From Trichomonas vaginalis G3 (lineage: Eukaryota > Parabasalia > Trichomonadida > Trichomonadidae), in the NCBI RefSeq assembly GCF_026262505.1, contig NC_067203.1, forward strand, positions 1,674,001 to 1,738,000: a stretch of DNA of 64,000 nt, written 5' to 3'. Under the pieces are notes generated by a model, which saw nothing but the letters and a program-made list of their open reading frames with translations, made no database searches and had not been told where the DNA came from. Within the stretch, counting starts at the first letter, position 1; each line of letters begins with the position of its first letter. Made by a program: the position numbers and the translations under genes. Below, in pieces: positions 8,738 through 58,927 of the stretch.

Positions 8738-10117
8738 ATGAGTCAGGGAATTGTTCTGAACTACGAATATATTGGCTCACATATCAAAGATTATATTGAA
8801 GCGGATAATCTCTTTAGCACATTCGAAGTCGAAGATATCGAATCAATCATGAAATTCGCGAATTTAACACCTGACGAGTTCAATTCTCTTCTTGCGCAAT
8901 CCCATTCTGTCATTTCAGCACGTGAATTGTATGCCTGCACTCGAAATGCAAATGTTTCAATAAACAACCTACAAGATGCCGTTTCAACACTTAAATCAGT
9001 TCAAAAGTACATGAAGATGCGAGTTTTCGAAGGAATTATTGTCTTTTTAGAACAATTGCAAAAGGATCAATCCATTACAACAAATAAAATCGAAAAACTT
9101 CAAGCAGATTTAATTCGGATCCAAAAAGAAAAAGAAAACGTTGAGAAAGAGATGCAAACTCTTCACTCTCAACTCAAAGCGAAAGAAGGAAACGATTTAC
9201 CAAAAGAATTTCTTTCGAAAATTTCGGAACTTAAAAATTCTGAAGATTTCGATCAAATCTACAAATTCTTTGAAGAAATTTCAGAAAAAGGAAATCAAAA
9301 AATGATGCAAAAAGCATGTGACGAAGAACTTTGGAAAAAACAAGATGATGATTATGGTACAAATGTACTTCATGAAGCATCTGTTAAAGGAAATCTGAGA
9401 CTTGTTAAATCTCTCATTGAATATGGCTGTGACAAAGAAATCAACAGCAAATATGGTGGTACAGCTCTAATTTGGGCATCAGATTGGGGTAAACTTGATG
9501 TTGTTCAATATCTTATCTCAGTTGGAGCTGATAAAGAAGCAAAGGATAATGATGGAAATACTCCACTCATTGAGGCATCAATTAATGGTCATCTTGAAGT
9601 TGTTAAATATCTTATCTCAGTTGGAGCTAATAAAGAAGCAAAGGATAAATATGGATATACTCCGCTCATTTTTGCATCACAAAAAGGTCATCTTGAAGTT
9701 GTTAAATATCTTATCTCAGTTGGAGCTAATAAAGAAGCAAAGACTAATGCTGGATATACTTCACTCATTTTGGCATCATCATATGGTCATCTTGAAGTTG
9801 TTCAATATCTTATCTCAGTTGGAGCTAATAAAGAAGCAAAGGATAATTATGGACGTACTCCACTCATTTGGGCATCAATAAGTGGTAAACTTGAAGTTGT
9901 TCAATATCTTATCTCTGTTGGAGCTAATAAAGAAGCAAAGACTAATGCTGGATATACTCCACTCATTATAGCATCATCTAATGGTCATCTTGAAGTTGTT
10001 AAATATCTTATCTCTAATGGAGCTAATAAAGAAGTAAAGGATAATAAAGGAGAAACAGCACTTGATTGTTCGAAAGGAGCAGTAAGAGAATATTTATTAT
10101 CAATTGCAAGAAAATAA
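8738..10117 (+). CDS. Ankyrin-repeat protein with coiled-coil N-terminus
   Basis: A 459-residue protein of a family typical of Trichomonas vaginalis. Residues 1-110 form a helical N-terminal domain. Residues about 115-155 form a coiled coil (KIEKLQADLIRIQKEKENV). From about 205 to the end there are seven full ankyrin repeats plus a partial one, each 33 residues (…TPLIxAS…GHLEVVKYLISVGANKEAKD…). In the DNA the repeats are a tandem 99-bp array with very high identity between units, which points to recent duplication or gene conversion. Ankyrin repeats bind other proteins; the partner is unknown. No signal peptide or membrane span is seen. The frame is intact with a clear ATG start. The C-terminus (GETALDCSKGAVREYL) is the family's usual cap. 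Confidence 0.85.
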   Translation: MSQGIVLNYEYIGSHIKDYIEADNLFSTFEVEDIESIMKFANLTPDEFNSLLAQSHSVISARELYACTRNANVSINNLQDAVSTLKSVQKYMKMRVFEGIIVFLEQLQKDQSITTNKIEKLQADLIRIQKEKENVEKEMQTLHSQLKAKEGNDLPKEFLSKISELKNSEDFDQIYKFFEEISEKGNQKMMQKACDEELWKKQDDDYGTNVLHEASVKGNLRLVKSLIEYGCDKEINSKYGGTALIWASDWGKLDVVQYLISVGADKEAKDNDGNTPLIEASINGHLEVVKYLISVGANKEAKDKYGYTPLIFASQKGHLEVVKYLISVGANKEAKTNAGYTSLILASSYGHLEVVQYLISVGANKEAKDNYGRTPLIWASISGKLEVVQYLISVGANKEAKTNAGYTPLIIASSNGHLEVVKYLISNGANKEVKDNKGETALDCSKGAVREYLLSIARK

Positions 10118-12107: not shown

Positions 12108-12617
12108 GGAGTTCTGGAGCTCCTGAAGAGGCAGAATGGCTGCCTTATTCTTCTGATCAGCAGAGGCCCAAATGGTAAAGGGCCTCTGCTGATACAGATT
12201 CAGGAGCTCCATTTCGTAGGGATTAGGAGCTCTGGAGCTCCTGAAGAGGCAGAATGGCTGCCTTATTCTTCTGATCAGCAGAGGCCCAAATGGTAAAGGG
12301 CCTCTGCTGATACAGATTCAGGAGCTCCGGAGATCCATTTCGTAGGGATTAGGAGCTCTGGAGCTCCTGAAGAGGCAGAATGGCTGCCTTATTCTTCTGA
12401 TCAGCAGAGGCCCAAATGGTAAAGGGCCTCTGCTGATACAGATTCAGGAGCTCCGGAGATCCATTTCGTAGGGATTAGGAGCTCTGGAGCTCCTGAAGAG
12501 GCAGAATGGCTGCCTTATTCTTCTGATCAGCAGAGGCCCAAATGGTAAAGGGCCTCTGCTGATACAGATTCAGGAGCTCCGGAGATCCATTTCGTAGGAT
12601 TGGAAGCTGAGGAGCTC
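12108..12617. repeat. 126-bp tandem repeat, four copies, each with a strong hairpin
   Basis: The word GCAGAATGGCTGCCTTATTC recurs at 12131, 12249, 12375 and 12501, giving periods of 118, 126 and 126 bp. The first unit lacks an 8-bp piece (CGGAGATC). Each unit contains ATCAGCAGAGGCCC, loop aaatggtaaa, and the exact inverted copy (14-bp stem), plus a smaller AGGCAG/CTGCCT stem and GAGCTC palindromes. Units are nearly identical and much more GC-rich than their surroundings. A degenerate fifth start follows. The open frames crossing it look incidental. It could be a satellite seed, a structured RNA array or a remnant of a hairpin-type transposon. Confidence 0.85.
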
Positions 12618-12817
12618 CTGTAAGGGAATAAGGTCTCTCACACAACCATTAAAATTTTTTTGAAACACGTCCCCTGCAATTGCACTGGATGTCAAAAAAA
12701 CTACTTTACAAAATGGTGGCAATTTGGCCGCACAATTTTGTAGTCTTCCCGTTTTCCAAATGTATAACATTACATTTTTTTCTTCTAATGAATTTAAATG
12801 ATATCCTATATGGTAAA

Positions 12818-13656: not shown

Positions 13657-14960
13657 TAGGGTGTCCAAAGGTGCGTTTAGCACAGCGCTCTATATGAGAC
13701 TATTAAAGGAGATATATGCTGATTATAAATATATAATAAAAAATATGAATATATGTATATGATGAGTATGTTGTATTTTGGCGCCATGCCGGGATATAAA
13801 ATGAATTTTGAGACAAGAGGCGGTTTCGCGGGAAATTTTGGCGGGATTTTTTTCATTTTTTTAATGAATCATAAAGAAAACATCCTCGCTCTTGCAAAAA
13901 AATGCAAAGACTGTAAAAAAATCTACGAGACATTGGTAAAGTGCTTCGGTATGGATGCTCCTAGCTATTCCACTGTAACGTATCATGTTAGGATGTATCA
14001 CTTCATGAACAAAAAGGCGCCCATCATAAAAATTGACAAAAAATCGCCGGATCAAAGAAAAATCAAAGCAATTCTTCAAGCGCTAGATGAAGACCCAAGA
14101 GCATCACTCAGAAGGATAGAGGAGATGACAAAGATACCACGTACAACAGTCAGTTATTATCTGCACAATTATTTGAACTACAAACTAGCGTATACACGTT
14201 GGGTTCCGCACAACCTTAATTCAGTTCAAAAAAAATCTAGAGTCCAATCTTCGAAAGAGCTCCTCTCTATATTGGGTGCGTATCAATCCAAGAAGTTTCG
14301 CTTTTTAGTAACAGGGGACGAGTCTTGGTTTCAATATGCAACAGAAGCCAAAATCATGTGGATCCCGAAGGATGAAAATCCGCAAACATTCCCGAAGAAA
14401 AAAATTGACACACCAATGATGATGTTGTCGGTTTTTTGGGGCGTGAATGGCATCATCGCAATTGATATTCTTCAAAAACCTAATACGATGAATGCTCAGT
14501 ATCTAATTGACAATGTTCTTACTCAAATTATCAATTCTGATGAGTTTGAGAAATCCAAACAACAAAAACAAAAGTTTGCAATTCATTTTGATAATTCAAG
14601 AGTTCACAAAAGTCATAAGGTAATGAATTACTTGGTGGAAAACAATGTCAAAGTTGTTCCAAACCCAATTTATTCACCTGATATTGCACCCTCTGACTTT
14701 TATTTATTCGGCACGCTAAAAAAGAGAGCTGAAGGACGCGAATTCGCGAGTCCAGATGATCTTGAAAATTTTGTAAGAGAGCAATTTGAGCAATTTTCTC
14801 ATGATGATTTAAAGCGTGTCTTTCAAGCCTGGATCGATCGCTGCGAACGCGTGATTGAATCCAATGGTGATTATATTTAAATAAACTTTATATATATGTA
14901 ACTTGTTTATTTCTATTCGCAGTATTCAGGTTTGTGCTAAACACACCTTTGGACACCCTA
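13657..14960 (+). mobile_element. Complete mariner transposon, Tvmar1-like
   Basis: A 1304-bp element flanked by TA duplications. Its 28-bp terminal inverted repeats (TAGGGTGTCCAAAGGTG…TTAGCACA at 13657-13684, and inverted at 14933-14960) differ at one position. It holds one intact transposase frame. Size, ends and host genome type fit Tvmar1, the mariner family described in Trichomonas vaginalis. The intact frame and ends suggest a recent and possibly mobile copy. It sits inside a DUF3447-ankyrin pseudogene in the same orientation. Confidence 0.9.
13753..14880 (+). CDS. Mariner-family transposase
   Basis: A 375-codon intact frame. The N-terminal half has two helix-turn-helix-like regions that bind the inverted repeats (…SYSTVTYHVRMYHF…, and SLRRIEEMTKIPRTTVSYYL). 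The linker and catalytic half carry the mariner signature: first Asp in VTGDESWFQYA, second in FAIHFDNSRVHKS, and third in YSPDIAPSDFYLFG. Exactly 34 residues lie between the second and third Asp, giving DD34D. The triad is complete, so the enzyme should be able to cut and paste the element at TA sites. The first ATG is at 13753; several in-frame ATGs follow, and the conserved protein could start as late as MNHKENILAL near 13864. Confidence 0.9.
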   Translation: MYMMSMLYFGAMPGYKMNFETRGGFAGNFGGIFFIFLMNHKENILALAKKCKDCKKIYETLVKCFGMDAPSYSTVTYHVRMYHFMNKKAPIIKIDKKSPDQRKIKAILQALDEDPRASLRRIEEMTKIPRTTVSYYLHNYLNYKLAYTRWVPHNLNSVQKKSRVQSSKELLSILGAYQSKKFRFLVTGDESWFQYATEAKIMWIPKDENPQTFPKKKIDTPMMMLSVFWGVNGIIAIDILQKPNTMNAQYLIDNVLTQIINSDEFEKSKQQKQKFAIHFDNSRVHKSHKVMNYLVENNVKVVPNPIYSPDIAPSDFYLFGTLKKRAEGREFASPDDLENFVREQFEQFSHDDLKRVFQAWIDRCERVIESNGDYI

Positions 14961-15475
14961 TATTAACAAATGTTTTATTAATTCAGTGAACTTTAACTTT
15001 CCACCCCTTTTGGAATATTTCATTTCACTTGGTGCAAATATCAATGAAAAAGATAAAAATGGAAACACAGCACTTCATAATGTAGTAGCATGGAATTATG
15101 ATGAAATGGCAGAAGTTCTTATTTCACATGGTGCAAATATCAATGAAAAAATAAATATGGAGAAACTGCACTTCATATTGCAGCTAAAATTATAGTAAAG
15201 AAACTGTTAAATTTCTTATTTCACATGGTGCAAATATCAATGAAAAAATAAATATGGAGAAACTGCACTTCATATTGCAGCTAAAAATTATAGTAAAGAA
15301 ACTGTTAAATTTCTTATTTCACATGGTGCGAATATCAATGAAAAAGATGAAGATGGAGAAACCGCACTTCATAATGTAGTAGTATGGAATAGTAAAGAAA
15401 TGGCCGAAATTCTTATTTTACATGGTGCAAATATCCACGAAAAAAAAAAATAAATATGGAGAAAACACACTTCAT
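14961..15475 (+). pseudogene. DUF3447/ankyrin gene, 3' part after mariner insertion
   Basis: This continues the interrupted gene: NKCFINSVNFNF, then ankyrin repeats of the type LEYFISLGANINEKDKNGNTALHN and AEVLISHGANINEK. The frame breaks several times where a GA is missing in GAAAAAGATAAATATGG-like sites (near 15153 and 15247). There is also an A-run expansion near 15441. At least four or five repeats are recognisable before similarity fades near 15480. Confidence 0.8.
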
Positions 15476-34830: not shown

Positions 34831-35210
34831 CTCTAATAATAATATCCATCAATAAGGTATAGTTTGAGTATATGTATATTTAAATGGATGCATAAATTTA
34901 TTTGATGTGAATTTCATAAGTGAAAATTTAATTTGATTTGATTAAGGAGCGAAATTGAAATTGATATAGATGTATAGATTTTGATTTTATGTAAAAAATG
35001 GATGAATTTAAAATCTAGTCAAGAATTTTTTAAATTTACAATTTTTTATTTTCACGAAAATATAAATAATATGATATAAAATGTCACTTATATTCATCTA
35101 TTTTCATTCTATCATGATACAGGATATAAAAATTCTATCGTTCTGAAAATACCAAATTGGTAATTTTTTTGAATGTTTCAAAAAACAAATCTTGGTATTT
35201 CTCCAAACTT
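34831..35210. other. Intergenic, nothing recognised
   Basis: AT-rich spacer between the transaldolase remnant and the next ankyrin gene. The transaldolase similarity may extend a few codons into it with a frameshift. Confidence 0.5.
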
Positions 35211-35216
35211 TTCATT
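35211..35216 (+). promoter_or_regulatory. Initiator overlapping the start of the ankyrin gene
   Basis: CTTTTCATTATG: TCATTA fits the initiator and places the start base only about 3 bases before the ATG at 35217. This supports that ATG over the upstream alternatives in the same frame. Confidence 0.5.
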
Positions 35217-36882
35217 ATGAGTTCTGGCTATTCGAGGCAATATGCAGACTTCATAGGAGCATTTGAAAAACTCTTTAGCATACAATCTAGCGAGTCTGTT
35301 GAAGAAATATGCAATATTATTTCAAATGTTTTGATATCGAAGTATAAACTTTCCGTAAAGAAACTTACAAAGATCACTCTCATGGCACTTCAATACAACT
35401 ATGCATCTGCAGAGAATTACGCCAAAATATTCAAGCATATTGGATCTAACTTTAAAAGAATATCTGAATTGATATTTCCATCGGAGAATTCAATCGAATA
35501 TATTGTTATGCATGATCAAATTGAAAAGTTCAAAGAATATATTTCTCAAAAGAGAATCGATAATGATTGCGTTTTTCTTGAAATTCCTGATTTAGTGAAA
35601 TATGAAAAAATCAAAAATTATGAATATAGACCTTTCGTCAAGCTATCATTAATTGAAGCATGTGCTTATTTTGGTTCTGTTAACATTTTCTTTTTCTTGA
35701 TTTCAAATCAAGGCTGTAAAAGAACAAACAATTGCCTTCGATACTCAATAATAGGAAGAAATGCTGATATTATCAATGAATGTTTGAAAAACAACAAAAT
35801 GGACATTTATACACTCAGAGACATTGTAATAACACATAATAATGAAATGTTGAAATATGTTTTAGAAAGGAAAATATTCACATATAAAGATTTCGAAGTT
35901 AACGAATCAATTTTTTATCCCTTCTTCAATAAGGATTCGTGTAGAGCTATTTATGAAGATATTATTACATATCAAAACCTTAATGCTGTATTCTTGCTTT
36001 TCGAGAGAGAAAACAAAATTATTGCTCCATTGTTTGCTGCATTTCCACAAACACTAGATATTCTCAGAAACAATATATTTCCTGATAAAGCTGATTTTCG
36101 TGGAAGGCATATTATACATTTTGCATGCAAATCACGAAATTCAGATATCTGCAAATTTTTACTTGACCAATGGAGCATGATTCATGTCAATGATACTGAT
36201 GACAACAATGAAGAATCTATTGAAGAATATTCTGATGACAATACCATTGTCAACATTGTAGATGTTATCGATGAGAAACATTTAACTCCACTTCATTATG
36301 CTGCAAAGAGAAATTCCAAAGAAATAGCAGAACTTCTTATTTCTCATGGTGCAAACATTAATGCAAAAGATAGAAAGGAAAAAACACCTCTTCATTATGC
36401 AGCAAAATATAATAGTAAAGAAATAGCAGAACTCCTTATTTCTCATGGAGCTAGTATCAATGCAAAAGATAGAATTAATAGAACTCCTCTACATTTTGCA
36501 GCAGGGAATAACTCTATTGAAATTGTCAAACTTCTAATTTATAATCATGCAGCTCGTGAAGTAGAAGATGAAAAGAAAAAAAACCCTTCATTATGCAGCA
36601 AAAAATAACAATAAGGAAATACTCGAAATTCTTATTTCTAATTGTGCAGATATCAATAAAAAAGATATAAAAAGCAAAACACCCCTTCATTATGCAGCAA
36701 AAAATAGTAGTAAAGAAATAATTAAAATTCTCATTTCTCATGGTGCAAATATCAATATAATAGATGAACATTTAAAAACAGCAATCTATTATGCAACAAA
36801 ACGATTTGGAAAAGCTTTACCAATCTTTTTTTCTCCCATGGCGATGTTGCATGATAAGAATGGAAAAACAATTGTTTTATAA
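35217..36882 (+). pseudogene. DUF3447-type ankyrin gene with a single frameshift
   Basis: The first frame runs from MSSGYSRQYADFIGAFEKLF (35217) to a stop at 36608. It covers the DUF3447 helical region and about four ankyrin repeats (HLTPLHYAAKRNSKEIAELL, SHGANINAKDR…). At the run of eight A (36576-36583) the frame slips by one base. The other frame continues without a break as TLHYAAKNNNKEILEILIS…DINKKDIKSKTPLHYAAKN…, to 36882, giving three more repeats. One base difference in a homopolymer separates an intact protein of about 555 residues from two pieces. It is either a recent loss, a phase-variable tract or a sequencing error. The protein would have no signal peptide. Confidence 0.8.
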
Positions 36883-44168: not shown

Positions 44169-46646
44169 TTACAAGAATAATTCAACTGCTTCTTCATAAT
44201 CTTGTCTGAAAACATCGTCAGTATCATCTGCTGCAAATGATTCACTCCATAATGGATTATCCATTGTGACATCTGTTTGCGGACACGATGTTGTCTGAAT
44301 GACTGTTTCGACATCCATCTCGTGAGATTGACTTTCTTCTTCCTCTTCCTCATCTTCAGCTCCTTTCTTGTAGTGAATAATGAGAACAATGATTATAATG
44401 AGAACGATTAAGAATAGGATTCCACTTCCGATTCCAATATACATATAAAGATTCTTCTTATTCTTATTCGATGTAGTCTGTCCGTTACCTGAGTCGATCT
44501 TAGCGTTGTTTGTTTGAGATGTTGTTGATTGTGGTGTTGATTCACTAGGTGTGATGAAAGGAGTAAAGAAAGGTGTTTCGAATGCTGTTTCTTTCTCTGT
44601 CATGAATGGTGTGTCGTATGGTGTATTGAAAGCTGTTTCTTGTTCTGTGTAGAAAGGTGTTTCGAATACTGTCTCTTCTTCGGTCATGAATGGTGTGTCG
44701 TATGGTGTATTGAATGCTGTTTCGTCTGCGGTAGAGAATGGTGTTTCGAAAACTGTTTCATGTTCTGTCATGAAAGGTGTATCGAAAGGAGTGATATGTG
44801 CTGTTTCAAATTGTGATTCGAAAGGTGTGTTGAATGGTGTTTCGAATACAGTTTCCTTTTCTGTAACAACAGGAGTATCGAATGGTGTCTGATCTGATGT
44901 CGAGAATGGTGTATCATATGGTGTTTCGAATGCTGTTTCTTTTTCTGTGATCAGAGGAGAGTCGAATGGTGTTTGATCGGACGTTAAGAATGGAGTATCA
45001 TATGGAGTTTCATCTGAAGTCAAGAAAGGTGTATAATATGGAGTTTCAAATGCTGTTGATTCTGCAGTGATAAATGGAGTTTCAAAAATAGTTTCTTGAG
45101 ATGTGATGAATGGAGTATATGAAACTGTTTCGAATGGAGTCTCATGAGCTGTTGAGAAAGGAGATTCAAACTGTGTGACATAAGGTGTTTCATGTGCTGT
45201 TGAATATAATGTTTCAAAAGGTGTTTCTGAAAATGTCTGGTGCTCTGTCATATAAGGTGTAATATATGGTGTTTCATGTTCTGTGAGATATGGTGTATCA
45301 AATGGTGTTTCTGAAAATGTTTCTTGTTCTGTGATATAAGGTGTGATATATGGTGTTTCATATGCTGTTGAATATGGTGTTTCGAAAACTGTTTCATATG
45401 GTGTCTCTTGTTCTGTTAAATATGGTGAATCAAATGGTGTTTCATGGGCTGTAGAATATGCTGTTTCGAATGGTGTTTCTGATAATGTTTGATGTTCGGT
45501 GAGATATGGTGTTTCGAATAATGTGTATGATGCTGTCATATATGCTGTTGTGAAAGGTGTATCGAATGGAGTATCAACAGGCGTGTTCATCATTGTTTGG
45601 AATGCAGTTAAGTATGGTGTTGATACTGGTGTGATGAGAGGTGTTGTCTGAGGTGTTGGAACAGGAGTATTTAATGGCATGCATCGACCATTCCACAAAA
45701 CTTTGCCTGATGGACATGATGTGCATCGTGATGCACCTGCACCATCACATGTCTTACAACTGCTATCACATTTAGAACATGTTCCTTTTCCTGTATCATA
45801 TGTTGCATCTGGTGTTTTATCACATGATAAGTAGCACTTTCGATCATACAACTTCTTCCCTGAATTACACTGATCACATGTTGATGCACTTGAACAAGCA
45901 TAACAATAATCCATGCAATAAAACTCGGTTTCAACAGAAAAGCATCCATGTCCTGTGTAATTAGTTTTGCTTCCATCTTTTACGCTTGCACCTCGAACCA
46001 TTGAATTATTAACGTATGAAGATCCACCATAACCACAAGCTACGGTATCAGATTGGTATAAATAAGTTCCTTTCCCTCCCGGACCTCCACGCCACCCACC
46101 ACCACCACCGGCCCCAGGAGTTGTAGCACTTTTTTCTCCATCACCTCCTTTCCTTGAGCTGCCATGTTCATTCATCTTGGCATTATTGTAACTTAGAAAA
46201 TAGCCAACACCACCTGCATTACCACCTTTATATCTGCCACAACCTCCAGAGCCAGCTCCGGCAAGCATGATGATAGAACCTGTATTTTTTACCTTAACTT
46301 CACTATATCCTCCTCCACTTCCAGAAAAATCACCACCAAAAGAACCAACCATCCAATCATTACCACCATTTCCACCACCAGGTTTTCCGCCTATGGCAGC
46401 TCTTTCACAATCTCCATATATCATCTCCCCAACGTTTACGACAATATAATGGCCGCCTTTAACATCAATTGATCCAGAAATTTGAGCTCCATTTCCACCA
46501 TAACCTGCATGTTTCCATTGTTTACAGCCACGACCTCCATTGGCTCCTTGGATTGTAATTTTATGGCGGCCTGCAGCCAAATACACTTCTTTATTTCTTT
46601 CTGAGATACAACTCCATGGAATTGTTACAGATAGGAAAAACAACAT
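44169..46646 (-). CDS. Glycine-rich, cysteine-rich, Thr/Pro-repeat surface protein
   Basis: An 825-residue type I membrane protein. Signal peptide about 1-14. A glycine-rich ALK/LTK-like domain spans about 20-240 (GANGGRGCKQW, MLAGAGSGGCG, GAGGGGGWRGGPGGKG). A furin-like cysteine-rich region follows at about 243-330 (YCYACSSASTCDQC, CSKCDSSCKTCDG). Then about 370 residues of imperfect repeats on TPFxT/TPYxTEHET/SETPFET themes form a Thr/Pro/Glu stalk. The DNA there (about 44530-45660) is a degenerate minisatellite with a 24/36-base rhythm. One transmembrane helix (about 733-758) leads into a 65-residue acidic tail with EEEEEE and DNPLWSESFAADDTDDVF. NPx(Y/F/W) tails occur in trichomonad BspA-type proteins and suggest endocytic sorting or signalling. 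It is probably a surface adhesin-like molecule. TCAATTTATTTTTATTAAATG on the minus strand may be the initiator. Confidence 0.85.
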   Translation of the reverse strand: MLFFLSVTIPWSCISERNKEVYLAAGRHKITIQGANGGRGCKQWKHAGYGGNGAQISGSIDVKGGHYIVVNVGEMIYGDCERAAIGGKPGGGNGGNDWMVGSFGGDFSGSGGGYSEVKVKNTGSIIMLAGAGSGGCGRYKGGNAGGVGYFLSYNNAKMNEHGSSRKGGDGEKSATTPGAGGGGGWRGGPGGKGTYLYQSDTVACGYGGSSYVNNSMVRGASVKDGSKTNYTGHGCFSVETEFYCMDYCYACSSASTCDQCNSGKKLYDRKCYLSCDKTPDATYDTGKGTCSKCDSSCKTCDGAGASRCTSCPSGKVLWNGRCMPLNTPVPTPQTTPLITPVSTPYLTAFQTMMNTPVDTPFDTPFTTAYMTASYTLFETPYLTEHQTLSETPFETAYSTAHETPFDSPYLTEQETPYETVFETPYSTAYETPYITPYITEQETFSETPFDTPYLTEHETPYITPYMTEHQTFSETPFETLYSTAHETPYVTQFESPFSTAHETPFETVSYTPFITSQETIFETPFITAESTAFETPYYTPFLTSDETPYDTPFLTSDQTPFDSPLITEKETAFETPYDTPFSTSDQTPFDTPVVTEKETVFETPFNTPFESQFETAHITPFDTPFMTEHETVFETPFSTADETAFNTPYDTPFMTEEETVFETPFYTEQETAFNTPYDTPFMTEKETAFETPFFTPFITPSESTPQSTTSQTNNAKIDSGNGQTTSNKNKKNLYMYIGIGSGILFLIVLIIIIVLIIHYKKGAEDEEEEEESQSHEMDVETVIQTTSCPQTDVTMDNPLWSESFAADDTDDVFRQDYEEAVELFL

Positions 46647-49930: not shown

Positions 49931-49960
49931 GACAAAATAATTTATGAAATTATAAGTCAT

Positions 49961-50210
49961 CTTTCTAATACATATTTTTGGAAGGGCGTAAGATACGCCA
50001 ACTTAAATATATTATTAAATATGAGAAAATCGCTCAACAAAAAAACAATTCTTTCAAAAAGTTTAAAATTTATCTTTCTAATACATATTTTTGGAAGGGC
50101 GTAAGATACGCCAACTTAAATATATTATTAAATATGAGAAAATCGCTCAACAAAAAAACAATTCTTTCAAAAAGTTTAAAATTTATCTTTCTAATACATA
50201 TCCTATGGAA
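49961..50210 (+). repeat. 113-bp tandem repeat, two copies plus a partial third
   Basis: CTTTCTAATACATATTTTTG starts units at 49961 and 50074, and a partial one at 50187 (CTTTCTAATACATATCCTAT). The two full units look identical. Open frames of 89 and 84 codons here are products of the repeat. Confidence 0.85.
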
Positions 50211-53192: not shown

Positions 53193-56100
53193 ATGACAAG
53201 CTCAGAGCAGCCAAAAAATGAAAATTGGAGCAATTATAGTGACCTTAAGCCAAATAAAGTATTCGAATACCCAGATCAAGCATCAAAAATTATTTGGAGC
53301 GTCAATTCCAATAATATTATACAAATTTCTTCACAAATTATCGAATTAATAACAACTCACAAAATATCTATCCAAATAGCACTTTATTTGATTAATGTTT
53401 TTTCACAAATTCGTGTTAAAGAAATTAAATTATTTGCAGAACTTTATCAAAGGATATCAAATGTATTTTCATACATCCATAAACCGAAAAATATGAGATT
53501 AGCGACGCTTCTACATTATCAAGGTTTCGAATTCGAATACTTCCAACCTAAAATGATAGAAGATGAAATTCTGAATTTATATTCAACAGAATCTCCTTTA
53601 TACTATATTGCATGGGATAAAGTTGATGATCTTAAGAGTAAATTCCCAAATCTTGATATTGATGAGGAAATTAATAAAATCACACCACTTGACTGGGCAA
53701 TTAAATATGGATCAGAATTGTGTTTCATTTACTTGAAAAATTTAGGATCTCAATACACCGAGGACTCAGCAAAATATGCTGTTCAAGGCGGAAATAAAGA
53801 GATTTTTATGCAAATTATAGAAGAAGGTGAATCATTTAATAAAGAGATTAATACAGCATTGGATTATCGAAACAATGAAATTGCTGAATATCTTAAATCA
53901 CATTTAGGACAAACTCCTGATTCAATAGCAGAAAGTATGCATTTCGGAAATTATGAAATTGCATCTTATTTACTTTCTAATGGAGAAGATATCAACAAAA
54001 TTTATAATCTCTTTCATTTAATATTTATCATTGTTTGATGACATTATCTTTAATTTAATATTTATCATTGTTTTATGGCATTCTCTTTCATTTCATATTT
54101 ATCATTGTTTTATAGAATTCTATTTCTTTTCATATTTATCATTGTTTTATGGCATTCTCTTTCATTCCATATTTATCATTGTTTTATGGCATTCTCTTTC
54201 TCTTCATATTTATCATTGCTTTATTACATTATCTTTCATGTCATATTTATCATTGTTTTATGACATTCTCTTTCTTTTCATATTTATTATTGTTTTATGG
54301 CATTCTCTTTCTTTTCATATTTATTATTGTTTTATGGCATTCTCTTTCATTTCATATTTATCATTGTTTTATTACATTATCTTTAATTTAATATTTATCA
54401 TTGTTTTATTACATTATCTTTAATTTAATATTTATCATTGTTTTATTACATTATCTTTCATTTCATATTTATCATTGCTTTATTGGATTATCTTTCTTTT
54501 CATATGTATCATTGTTTTATGGCATTCTCTTTCATTTCATATTTATCATTGTTTGATGACATTATCTTTCATTTCATATTTATCATTGTTTTATAAAATT
54601 CTTTTGATATTAATGAATGCCCTCTTAGTATTGCAATCGAATGGAAATCAATAGAAATTGTCCAATTCCTAGTTGAGCATGGTGCTGATGTTAACATGAA
54701 ACTTATTCTCTTTCTTTTCATATCTATTTTTATTTTATAATATACTCTTTCATTTCATATTTATCATTGTTTCATGAAATTCTCTTTCATATCATATTTA
54801 TCATTGCTTTATTGGATTATCTTTCATATCATATTTATCATTGTTTTATTACATTCTCTTTCTTTTCATATTTATCATTGTTTTATTACATTATCTTTAA
54901 TTTAATATTTATCATTGTTTTATTACATTATCTTTCATTTCATATTTATCATTGTTTTATGGCATTCTCTTTCATTCCATATTTATCATTTTTTTATGGC
55001 ATTCTCTTTCTCTTCATATTTATCATTGCTTTATTGGATTATCTTTCTTTTCATATTTACCATTGTTTGATGACATTATCTTTCATTTCATATTTATCAT
55101 TGTTTTATAGAATTCTATTTCTTTTCATATTTATCATTGTTTTATGGCATTCTCTTTCATTTCATATTTATAACTGTTTTATATTATTCTCTTTCATGTC
55201 ATATTTATCATTGTTTTATTACATTATCTTTCATTTCATATTTATCATTGTTTTATTACATTCTTTTGATATTAATGAATGTCCTCTTAGCATTGCAATC
55301 GAATGGAAATCAATAGAAATTGTCCAATTCCTAGTTGAGCATGGTGCTGATGTTAACATGAAATTTATTCTCTTTCTTTTCATATCTATTTTTATTTTAT
55401 AATATACTCTTTCATTCCATATTTATCGTCGCTTTATAGAATTCTATTTCTTTTCATATTTATCATTGTTTTATTACATTATCTTTCATTTCATATTTAT
55501 CATTGTTTTATAACATTATCTTTAATTTAATATTTATCATTGTTTTGTAACATTCTCTTTCTTTTCATATTTATCATTATTTTATAGAATTCTATTTCTT
55601 TTCATATTTATCATTATTTTATTACATTGTCTTTAATTTCATATTTATCAATGTTTTATAAAATTCTTTTTCTTTTCATATTTATTATTGTTTTATTACA
55701 TTATCTTTCATGTCATATTTATCATTGTTTTATAAAATTCTCTTTCATTTCATAATTATCATTGTTTTATGACATTCTTTTGATATTAATGAATGCCCTC
55801 TTAGTATTGCCATCAGAGAGAATTCAATAGAAATTGTCCAATTCCTAGTTGAGCATGGTGCTGATGTTAACATGAAACTTATTCTCTTTCTTTTCATATC
55901 TATTTTTATTTTATAATATACTCTTTCATTCCATATTTATCGTCGCTTTATAGAATTCTATTTCTTTTCATATTTATCATTGTTTTATAAAATTCTCTTT
56001 CTTTTCATATTTTTCATTGTTTTATGGCATTCTCTTTAATTTCATATTTATTGTTGTTTTAATTAATTCTTTTTCTTTTCATACTTATCATTGCTTTATT

Positions 56101-58927
56101 GTATTCTCTTTCATTTAATATTTATCATTGTTTTATGGCATTCTCTTTCATTTAATATTTATCATTGTTTTATGGCATTCTCTTTCATTTAATATTTATC
56201 ATTGTTTAATGGCATTATCTTTCATTTCATATTTATCATTGTTTTATGGCATTCTCTCTTCTTTTCATATTTATAACTGTTTTATATTATTCTCTTTCAT
56301 TTAATATTTATCATTGTTTAATGGCATTATCTTTCATTTCATATTTATCATTGTTTTATGGCATTCTCTCTTCTTTTCATATTTATAACTGTTTTATATT
56401 ATTCTCTTTCATTTAATATTTACCATTGTTTTATGAAATTCTCTTTCATTTCATATTTATCATTGTTTAATGACATTCTCTCTTCTTTTCATATTTATCA
56501 TTGTTTTATGGCATTCTCTTTCTTTTCATATTTATTATTGTTTTATTACATTATCTTTCATGTCATATTTATCATTGTTTTATAAAATTCTCTTTCATTT
56601 CATATTCATCATTGTTTTATGAAATTCTCTCGATATTAATGAATGCCCTCTTAATATTGCCATCAGAGAGAATTCAATAGAAATTGTCCAATTCCTAGTT
56701 GAGCATGGTGCTGATGTTAACATGAAACTTATTCTCTTTCTTTTCATATTTATCATTATTTTATTACATTGTCTTTAATTTCATATTTATCATCATTTTA
56801 TAGAATTCTATTTCTTTTCATATTTATCATTGTTTTATAATATTCTCTTTCATTTCATTTTTATCAATGTTTTATAAAATTCTTTTTCTTTTCATATTTA
56901 TAACTGTTTTATATTATTCTCTTTCATGTCATATTTATCATTGTTTTATGAAATTCTCTTTCATTTCATATTTATCATTGTTTTATTACATTCTTTTGAT
57001 ATTAATGAATGCCCTCTTAGCATTGCAATCGAATGGAAATCAATAGAAATTGTCCAATTCCTAGTTGAGCATGGTGCTGATGTTAACATGAAATTTATTC
57101 TCTTTCTTTTCATATCTATTTTTATTTTATAATATACTCTTTCATTCCATATTTATCATTGTTTCATGAAATTCTCTTTCATATCATATTTATCATTGTT
57201 TTATTACATTCTTTTGATATCAATAAATGCCCTCTTAGTATTGCAATCGATGTGAAATCAATAGAAATTGTCCAATTCCTAGTTGAGCATGGTGCTGATG
57301 TTAACATGAAACTTATTCTCTTTCTTTTCATATCTATTTTTATTTTATAATATACTCTTTCATTTCATATTTATCATTGTTTCATGAAATTCTCTTTCAT
57401 ATCATATTTATCATTGTTTTATTACATTGTCTTTAATTTCATATTTATCATTGTTTTATGGCATTCTCTTTCTTTTCATATTTATCATTGTTTTATAAAA
57501 TTCTCTTTCATTTCATATTTATCATTGTTTTATGGCATTCTTTTGATATTAATGAATGTCCTCTTAGTATTGCAATCGAATGGAAATCAATAGAAATTGT
57601 CCAATTCCTAATTGAGCATGGTGCTGATGTTAACATGAAACTTATTCTCTTTCTTTTCATATTTATCATTATTTTATAGAATTCTATTTCTTTTCATATT
57701 TATCATTATTTTATTACATTGTCTTTAATTACATATTTATCATTGTTTTATTACATTATCTTTCTTTTCATATTTATCATTGTTTTATTACATTCTTTTT
57801 CTTTTCATATTTATCATTGTTTTATTGGATTATCTTTCTTTTCATATCTATTTTTATTTTATAATATACTCTTTCATTCCATATTTATCATTTTTTTATT
57901 ACATTCTCTTTCTCTTCATATTTATCATTGCTTTATTGGATTATCTTTCTTTTCATATTTATCATTGTTTTATTACATTATCTTTCTTTTCATATTTATC
58001 ATTGTTTTATAACATTCTCTTTCTTTTCATATTTATCATTGTTTTATGACATTATCTTTCATTTCATATTTATCATTGTTTTATTGGATTATCTTTCTCT
58101 TCATATTTATCATTGTTTTATGACATTAATTTTCTTTTCATATTTTTCATTGTTTTATGAAATTCTCCTTCATTTTATATTTATCATTGTTTTATAACAT
58201 TATCTTTAATTTCATATTTATCATTGTTTTATAACATTATCTTTAATTTCATATTTATCATTGTTTTATAAAATTCTTTTTCTTTTCCTATTTATCATTG
58301 TTTCATGAAATTCTCTTTCATATCATATTTATCATTGTTTTATTACATTCTTTTGATATCAATAAATGCCCTCTTAGTATTGCAATCGATGTGAAATCAA
58401 TAGAAATTGTACAATTCCTAGTTGAGCATGGTGCTGATGTTAACATGAAACTTATTCTCTTTCTTTTCATATCTATTTTTATTTTATAATATACTCTTTC
58501 ATTTCATATTTATCATTGTTTCATGAAATTCTCTTTCATATCATATTTATCATTGTTTTATTACATTGTCTTTAATTTCATATTTATCATTGTTTTATAA
58601 CATTCTCTTTCATTTAATATTTATCATTGTTTAATGGCATTATCTTTCATTTCATATTTATCATTGTTTTATGGCATTCTCTTTCATTTCATATTTATCA
58701 TTGTTTTATTACATTCTCTTTCATTTCATATTTATCATTGTTTTATTACATTATCTTTCATTTCATATTTATCATTATTTTATTGGATTATCTTTCTTTT
58801 CATATTTACCATTGTTTTATGAAATTATCTCGATATTAATGAAAATCCTCTTAGTATTGCAATCAAATTTGAAGCAACAAATATTATCGCTTTCTTAGTT
58901 GAACATGGTGCTAGAAATCTCAAATAA
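53193..58927 (+). pseudogene. DUF3447/ankyrin locus split by nine minisatellite arrays
   Basis: The locus opens with MTSSEQPKNENWSNYSDL (53193; the frame reaches ATG 53109) and a DUF3447-type helical region, including PLYYIAWDKVDDLKSKF, ending at …SNGEDINK near 54010. Nine separate 32-codon ankyrin units follow at 54606, 55268, 55782, 56632, 56998, 57216, 57545, 58355 and 58832. Each starts DIN(E/K) and ends GADVNMK, except the last, which ends GARNLK and a TAA at 58925-58927. All nine units are free of stops. Between them lie arrays of a ~37-bp T-rich repeat (122 to about 754 bp), always entering after the Lys codon and leaving before the Asp codon. Spacing between units is not a multiple of three in several cases, so the locus cannot be one continuous frame. 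If the arrays were removed, a regular ankyrin protein of about 560 residues would result. I see no Trichomonas splice signals. Confidence 0.75.
54010..58831 (+). repeat. 37-bp T-rich minisatellite arrays interleaved with ankyrin units
   Basis: The unit runs TATCATTGTTTTATGGCATT then CTCTTTCATTTCATATT (37 bp). Common variants change GGCATT to TACATT, AACATT, AAAATT or AGAATT, and CATTTCATATT to TTTTCATATT. The plus strand is very poor in G and rich in T. As 37 is one more than a multiple of three, three units encode a 37-residue hydrophobic stretch (FIIVLWHSLSFHIYHCF…). This yields many spurious frames of 60-211 codons. Arrays restart with CTTATTCTCTTTCTTTTCAT after each ankyrin unit. Blocks around 57100-57420 and 58290-58570 are near-identical, showing duplication of array plus ankyrin unit together. 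Confidence 0.9.

Follow-up and report, generated by a model that had tools for sequence, protein, structure and literature searches.

Ankyrin units under coding constraint but separated by out-of-frame 37-bp minisatellite arrays in a large Trichomonas vaginalis family: possible removal of the arrays from RNA

This report concerns a locus of Trichomonas vaginalis G3 in which short ankyrin-coding units alternate with arrays of a T-rich 37-bp minisatellite. It lies at positions 53,193 to 58,927 of the window, by which I mean the whole stretch of 64,000 nucleotides that was analysed (NC_067203.1, positions 1,674,001 to 1,738,000, forward strand). The arrays invite comparison with the spliceosomal introns of the same organism, which are also non-coding stretches inside reading frames and also T-rich, those of type B having a polythymine interior. 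Trichomonas is held to be nearly intron-free: the accessible portion of an RNA-seq survey gives only 63 introns, each of 23-196 nt, bounded by GT/AG, with a motif at the 5' end and ACTAA joined to the 3' site, and one to a transcript (PMC12316389). The same strict motifs served that survey as a filter: known-motif junctions alone were retained, and 99.7% of questionable junctions were removed (PMC12316389). The arrays are different. They run from 48 to 1084 nt, consist of tandem 37-mers, carry no such motifs at their edges and occur several to tens of times per locus.

Ankyrin genes of the ordinary sort are present in the window as well, at 8738-10117 and 35157-36608, and they resemble the array-bearing family in placing ankyrin repeats behind an N-terminal domain. 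Their repeats, however, are of 33 residues and uninterrupted, whereas in the family described here each unit has 32 codons and the junctions carry arrays. The second of these genes, followed to 36768, shows frame breaks within its uninterrupted repeats at about 36.6 kb. A further comparison is with composite, or higher-order, satellite DNA, which may include the exons of genes. The family shares with it a head-to-tail order of unit plus array, homogenisation within loci and very long stretches; unlike such a satellite, its exon part is under frame-specific constraint, and many loci retain a distinct first and a distinct last exon. Finally, the transmembrane adenylyl cyclases of T. vaginalis also form a family of more than 100 dispersed copies with gene conversion and signs of purifying selection, 46% of them pseudogenes according to the part of the report available (PMC2914791), which also counts 227 ankyrin-repeat genes annotated as pseudogenes in GenBank. 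Against that 46%, a stop is found here in 3 of 30 N-terminal exons, and disruption falls at one fixed position in nearly all copies tested. Internal minisatellites are not described for the cyclases in that part of the report (PMC2914791).

The anatomy of the locus is regular. The first-pass annotation of this DNA had recognised nine 96-nt units of 32 codons, all open, at distances from start to start of 662, 514, 850, 366, 218, 329, 810 and 477 bp, with 122-754 bp of array between them, and all of this is borne out to the nucleotide. Its statement that an array borders each unit on the 3' side is right for eight of them; the ninth ends in GARNLK and closes with its own in-frame TAA. To this can be added that the N-terminal open reading frame (ORF; 53193-54008) is itself split from unit 1 by an array, at the equivalent position. 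The features, all on the + strand, are these:

53193..54038, +: N-terminal exon or ORF, a 281-aa ankyrin-like domain as in the database (P0002), placed by genome matches and conservation of its ATG
54009..54605, +: 37-bp array from the N-terminal exon to unit 1
54606..54701, +: ankyrin unit 1, 32 codons
54702..55267, +: array, 566 bp, n=15
55268..55363, +: ankyrin unit 2
55364..55781, +: array, 418 bp, n=11
55782..55877, +: ankyrin unit 3
55878..56631, +: array, 754 bp, n=20, with a few repeats of 38
56632..56727, +: ankyrin unit 4
56728..56997, +: array, 270 bp, n=7
56998..57093, +: ankyrin unit 5
57094..57215, +: array, 122 bp, n=3, without unusual fold when taken with its edges
57216..57311, +: ankyrin unit 6
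57312..57544, +: array, 233 bp, n=6
57545..57640, +: ankyrin unit 7
57641..58354, +: array, 714 bp, n=19
58355..58450, +: ankyrin unit 8
58451..58831, +: array, 381 bp, n=10
58832..58927, +: last ankyrin unit, of distinct type, with in-frame stop; homologous last units with their 3' flank occur at other loci

The first two features overlap. Coding homology of the N-terminal ORF stops at about 54008, and its final 9 codons or so, with the stop, are array sequence. Tandem Repeats Finder reads the entire region 54008-58830 as a single array of period 37 and 131 copies. The 23-mer core of the array occurs 98 times in the window at three mismatches or fewer, as against 0.01 expected in shuffles, and a 22-mer of that core has 3503 exact occurrences in the genome. 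The edges of arrays and of units are similar at all junctions. That the units are ankyrin repeats is supported by Pfam, where unit 1 scores 26.9 bits with PF00023 (cut-off 21.1) and the N-terminal ORF 29.0 bits with PF12796 (cut-off 27.3); the last unit taken alone lies below the Ank cut-off, at 14.9 bits at best, and a fold search of the PDB gave weak ankyrin-type matches, none with E <=0.001.

Ankyrin-repeat proteins have their consecutive repeats in one continuous frame. The DNA of this family does not provide one. Gaps between successive units in the sampled loci (n=87) range from 48 to 1084 nt with a median of 343, one gap in locus L078 consisting mostly of other sequence, and 70 of the 87 fit 37n+11 (modulo 37) with n from 1 to 29. 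Their lengths modulo 3 fall 25, 32 and 30, which is to say at random, and the remark of the first-pass annotation that frame is not kept thus extends from the window to the family. No junction between units is both in frame and free of stops (0/87), nor is any junction between the N-terminal exon and unit 1 (0/29). Without processing, then, no transcript of the sampled loci could be translated from one unit into the next. Simple read-through of the arrays is by the same counts ruled out in the sample. So is a programmed frameshift at each unit, since subtracting one base from 37n+11 for every unit gives a remainder of 2 in all cases.

Even so, the units evolve as protein. I compared 70 distinct inner units from 36 loci along the 69 edges of a minimum spanning tree, leaving out four damaged or cut units and all 11 that bear stops. 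Those 11 are all of the last type, so no inner unit was lost to the stop rule. The edges contain 325 changes, of which 133 are synonymous, 192 nonsynonymous and none a stop, where placing each change at random on a like base (a spectrum-matched expectation) gives 81.9, 230.4 and 12.7. The ratio is 0.51, and in the other two frames it is 1.58 and 2.00. Between loci, NG86 puts the ratio of nonsynonymous to synonymous rates (dN/dS, or omega) at 0.29 (37 loci), and at 0.35 in the 29 loci whose N-terminal exon gives 0.54. Codon maximum likelihood favours an omega of about 0.3 over 1 by some 26 log units. Interior units of the arrays, one per locus from 32 loci, give 0.96 in the phase of the ankyrin unit and 1.77 and 0.80 in the others; they look neutral. 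The conservation of the units as coding, which the first-pass annotation had read from the window's nine, is upheld, and the dN/dS near 1 that it had named as telling against its reading is not what the family shows.

Indels point the same way. A gapped search (E 0.01), which badly broken units could escape, found 126 unit matches in the sampled loci: a 1-nt deletion is present in one of them (the last unit of L050), a unit of L060 runs into other sequence, and two are cut by the end of the stretch. Spacings within the arrays depart from 37 in 28 of 1092 cases, which predicts 8.2 indels in the unit sequence against the one frameshift observed (Poisson P about 0.002). Then there is the codon pair GTC CAA with its two adjacent C's, counted genome-wide in exact 23-mers, a count that omits units with another difference in the 23-mer. 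It stands unchanged 516 times; a silent C-to-T change appears 31 times in 8 locus clusters, and a stop-making C-to-T change not at all. Eight clusters against none has a probability of 0.004 under equal freedom, though two of the clusters may be sister copies. A pseudogene would have a ratio near 1 with stops and indels accumulating in its units, and these units are otherwise.

The locus is one of many, the paralogs closest to it being TVAG proteins. Its N-terminal exon has at least 133 matches in the genome, two loci being counted as two pieces each. I examined 91 loci: 30 with the window included (L051-L080), four more (L081-L084), and 57 short stretches downstream of further matches, from which one (L164) was excluded in the census that follows, its match ending at residue 233. 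With a strict rule, an array unit at the expected place with at most 7 mismatches in 23, which 1.5% of random stretches pass, 86 of 90 paralogs (30/30, 52/56 and 4/4) have 37-bp arrays directly behind the N-terminal exon, down to an amino-acid identity of about 50%. The failures are three more divergent members (L168, L173 and L174) and one, L126, that is 74% identical and has array-like units off the expected register. A permissive version of the census, in which all 56 of 56 passed, was discarded, 23% of control stretches having passed too. This comparison with paralogous loci had been proposed in the first-pass annotation, along with the suggestion that the locus is a duplicated dead one. 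The suggestion is too narrow for a family of this size with the same arrays nearly throughout; the part of it that stands is that the repeat region may be dying, to which I return.

No array-less junction between units (0-30 nt) was found in the genome by exact pattern, a search that a diverged array-less member could escape; the same pattern with 70-100 nt spacing finds six n=2 arrays. That search thus yielded no array-less relative as a possible source of the constraint. No array units were found in viral contigs. A description of these arrays was not seen among the open-licence papers listed by literature searches, nor was a paper on the six TVAG identifiers that were looked up.

Both ends of the family's loci are kept. 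At the 5' end, the ATG is conserved in all 30 aligned loci and no stop follows it in 27 of them, the window's copy being intact; the family is thus not generally dead there. Disabling lesions in the N-terminal exon, by which a pseudogene would be known, amount to an in-frame stop after the ATG in three loci (L053, L056 and L061). The exon has a tree-edge ratio of 0.63 and an omega of about 0.54. At the 3' end, the window's last unit with its 3' flank, used as query, gave 47 matches, of which 40 candidates were scored and 38 stretches read, 39 with the window. The stop falls at codon 31 in 28 of the 39; six have it at codon 30, 32 or 37, one has it early because of a deletion, and in four it lies outside the stretch. 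It is double in 25. An indel is present in two, L113 and L098 (the latter being the last unit already noted for L050), and these were left out of the ratio test together with L119. The remaining 36 give a ratio of 0.73 (P(syn) 0.0145), with 2 stop changes where 5.4 are expected, and 1.39 and 1.69 in the other frames. Stop and constraint together imply that these loci have retained a C-terminus downstream of a middle part that is unreadable.

The locus is one member of a large ankyrin family built of an N-terminal exon, a variable set of 32-codon exons and a distinct last exon with a stop, with a minisatellite of random length (37n+11 nt) at the exon-exon boundaries. I propose that a long transcript would be made across exons and arrays, the arrays excised between their fixed edges, and the 32-codon exons joined in phase 0 to give a joined protein. 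The transcript and the excision suggest themselves because the arrays break frame and carry stops while the exons evolve as protein. I tentatively favour expression of this kind over a recently dying family on its way to becoming a composite satellite, given constraint on units that cannot be joined in the DNA, arrays that are nearly universal, an N-terminal exon that is mostly intact, and the failure to find an array-less source. The stronger form of the proposal, that hundreds to thousands of 37-bp arrays are spliced from the transcripts of one family without GT/AG or the known branch-site motif, while array length drifts freely and unequal exchange sets the number of exons, appears possible on these sequences but more doubtful.

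A good deal weighs against removal of the arrays, beginning with the want of a signal. Edges were scanned, between 30 nt into the unit and 60 nt into the array, for any dinucleotide that half or more of the locus-weighted junctions share at one position. GT is so conserved at -30, -20, -12 and +30 and AG at +23, and all four pairings break the frame. The known Trichomonas motifs were sought in simplified form, the 5' motif from GYAYGY/GTWYWD and the branch site as [AT]CTAA fused to the 3' site (PMC12316389). The 5' form, GT[AT][CT]G, lies near the edge in 3 of 83 junctions and the 3' form in none of 83, so the first-pass annotation was correct in saying that these motifs are absent. The one array tested has no stable fold (z 0.24), and no Rfam family matched. 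A pairing of the end of a unit with the start of the next, which the fold had suggested, is complete in just 13 of 87 junctions and was dropped. Array removal, if real, is therefore not by a catalogued route; it would be splicing that lacks both a conserved frame-keeping GT..AG pair and the known branch-site motif. Nor do the lengths help, only the shortest gaps being inside the range of 23-196 nt, and the small total of introns in the survey is a further point on this side. The survey's own filter must be kept in mind here, and as far as its accessible text goes it neither supports nor excludes the removal proposed (PMC12316389). At the other end of the process, TCAYW, which I take to be an initiator-like motif, is present in the 60 nt preceding the ATG of 12 of 30 loci; its place differs among them, and no site is conserved.

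The remaining difficulties concern how the loci have evolved. Differences within loci, taken alone, give a ratio of 0.73 (P 0.051), with no stop where 3.3 are expected. In at least 4 of 30 loci (L056, L060, L064 and L071) the first array or unit gives way to other sequence, but 2-8 kb downstream on the same strand like units, or a last unit, appear again; these look like loci with insertions. For a fifth, L075, no resuming units were seen among the matches listed. An N-terminal exon at C1:4539202-4540053 is followed, among the 150 best matches, by at least 34 units over 50 kb, all of them stop-free. Dense stretches of unit plus array, with extents taken from match positions, lie at C1:4488632-4540053, C2:6516288-6630296, C2:7015809-7164128 and C2:19622673-19686763 and reach about 150 kb; they appear to have the long head-to-tail arrangement that characterises a composite satellite, and stretches so large look like satellite growth. 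(A 14-kb cluster at C1:3661825-3675798 has array units on both strands.) Distances between loci L051-L080 computed from each quarter of the N-terminal exon are nearly uncorrelated, save for quarters 1 and 2, a mosaicism that points to gene conversion among paralogs. N-terminal distances have a weak correlation with ankyrin-unit distances (r 0.18, P 0.10); with the distances of the first and second array units r is 0.24 and 0.46. With an r of 0.18 and so uneven a signal from quarter to quarter, the case for vertical descent of the arrays is weak. A coding signature of older date could be carried along by homogenisation. Divergence between loci is of no use in dating the arrays, for it is 0.179 against 0.150 within loci.

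The most serious competitor, which I nonetheless consider unlikely, is that the repeat part has recently died and is turning into a composite satellite. It has its root in the n=1 spacer, which is 48 nt or 16 codons and in frame. On this account such a short spacer was ancestral, expansion of the minisatellite broke the members, unequal exchange and gene conversion spread and homogenised the blocks, and the coding signature is a relic of the time before expansion. It is favoured by array lengths random modulo 3, by the interrupted loci, by large stretches with many near-identical units, by the mosaic paralogs and by the stops in three N-terminal exons; and T. vaginalis does have large pseudogene-rich families with gene conversion, as the accessible part of the cyclase report describes (PMC2914791). 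It is favoured also by the absence of a removal signal and of clear constraint within loci, where the ratio is marginally below 1, together with the size of the stretches. What it must explain is how arrays came to 86 of 90 paralogs while 27 of 30 N-terminal exons stayed open and no unit took up any of the 12.7 stops expected. The expansion would have to be very recent and parallel at nearly all loci. Constraint is also visible in the single-step differences between units, where 9 synonymous and 9 nonsynonymous changes, no more than 18 in all, stand against 4.3 and 13.0 expected (P 0.006); when edges of up to three steps are taken, the ratio is 0.64 (P 0.054). No array-less source that could have supplied the signature was found by exact pattern.

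It is also conceivable, but improbable, that the N-terminal ORF is the sole gene, as it is currently annotated: an ankyrin-like protein of 281-282 aa whose short hydrophobic tail is supplied by the first array unit, everything downstream being untranslated. In the databases, 61 of 92 relatives have a hydrophobic C-terminal stretch of the array-tail type, and the exon is both open from its conserved ATG and constrained. In a structure model the N-terminal part folds into an ankyrin-like solenoid, with confidence as far as about residue 260. The array-coded tail is another matter: its ratio of 0.74 is not significant (P 0.24), and the model has low confidence there. Moreover, the downstream units are constrained at least as much as the exon itself (0.35 against 0.54). 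The model is compatible with removal of the arrays and with a dying repeat part alike.

Very improbable is the idea that the arrays are coding, with some copies keeping all of them in frame and stop-free to make a protein with hydrophobic spacers and the rest decayed. One database entry, P0093 (an ENA contig of 1275 bp), does read in a single frame through an N-terminal end, an array of 79 codons, an ankyrin unit and an array of 57 codons. The unreadable junctions of the sample and the neutral evolution of the arrays speak against it, and a family with so large a number of units should by chance contain open stretches such as that of P0093 (downstream 14/109, upstream 4/113). Just as improbable is a silent archive of ankyrin cassettes, from which units would pass to an expressed gene by recombination that the arrays promote. 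Mosaic paralogs and similar junction edges would suit it, but strong constraint is unexpected in a silent archive, and the exact-pattern search turned up no gene with contiguous units of this type that might serve as recipient.

Other repeats of the window deserve a brief mention. At 13753-15449 a transposase ORF, presumably mariner-like, is directly followed by broken ankyrin repeats in changing frames, and part of the text of that ORF recurs near the array locus L082. Nested repeats of 12, 24, 36 and 84 bp, all multiples of three, occupy 44563-45560 within an 825-codon ORF on the - strand (44169-46646). A GC-rich 126-bp tandem repeat lies at 12108-12620 (4.1 copies, 96%) and a perfect 113-bp tandem at 49959-50201 (2.2 copies).

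What the family presents, then, is a set of exons that are constrained and yet cannot be joined by any known route. Either T. vaginalis would possess a form of RNA processing that is not in the catalogue, or the repeat part of a gene family would be caught in the course of becoming a satellite, its coding signature still fresh. Many of the family's annotated proteins, namely those relatives that end in an array-type tail, may be truncated gene models.

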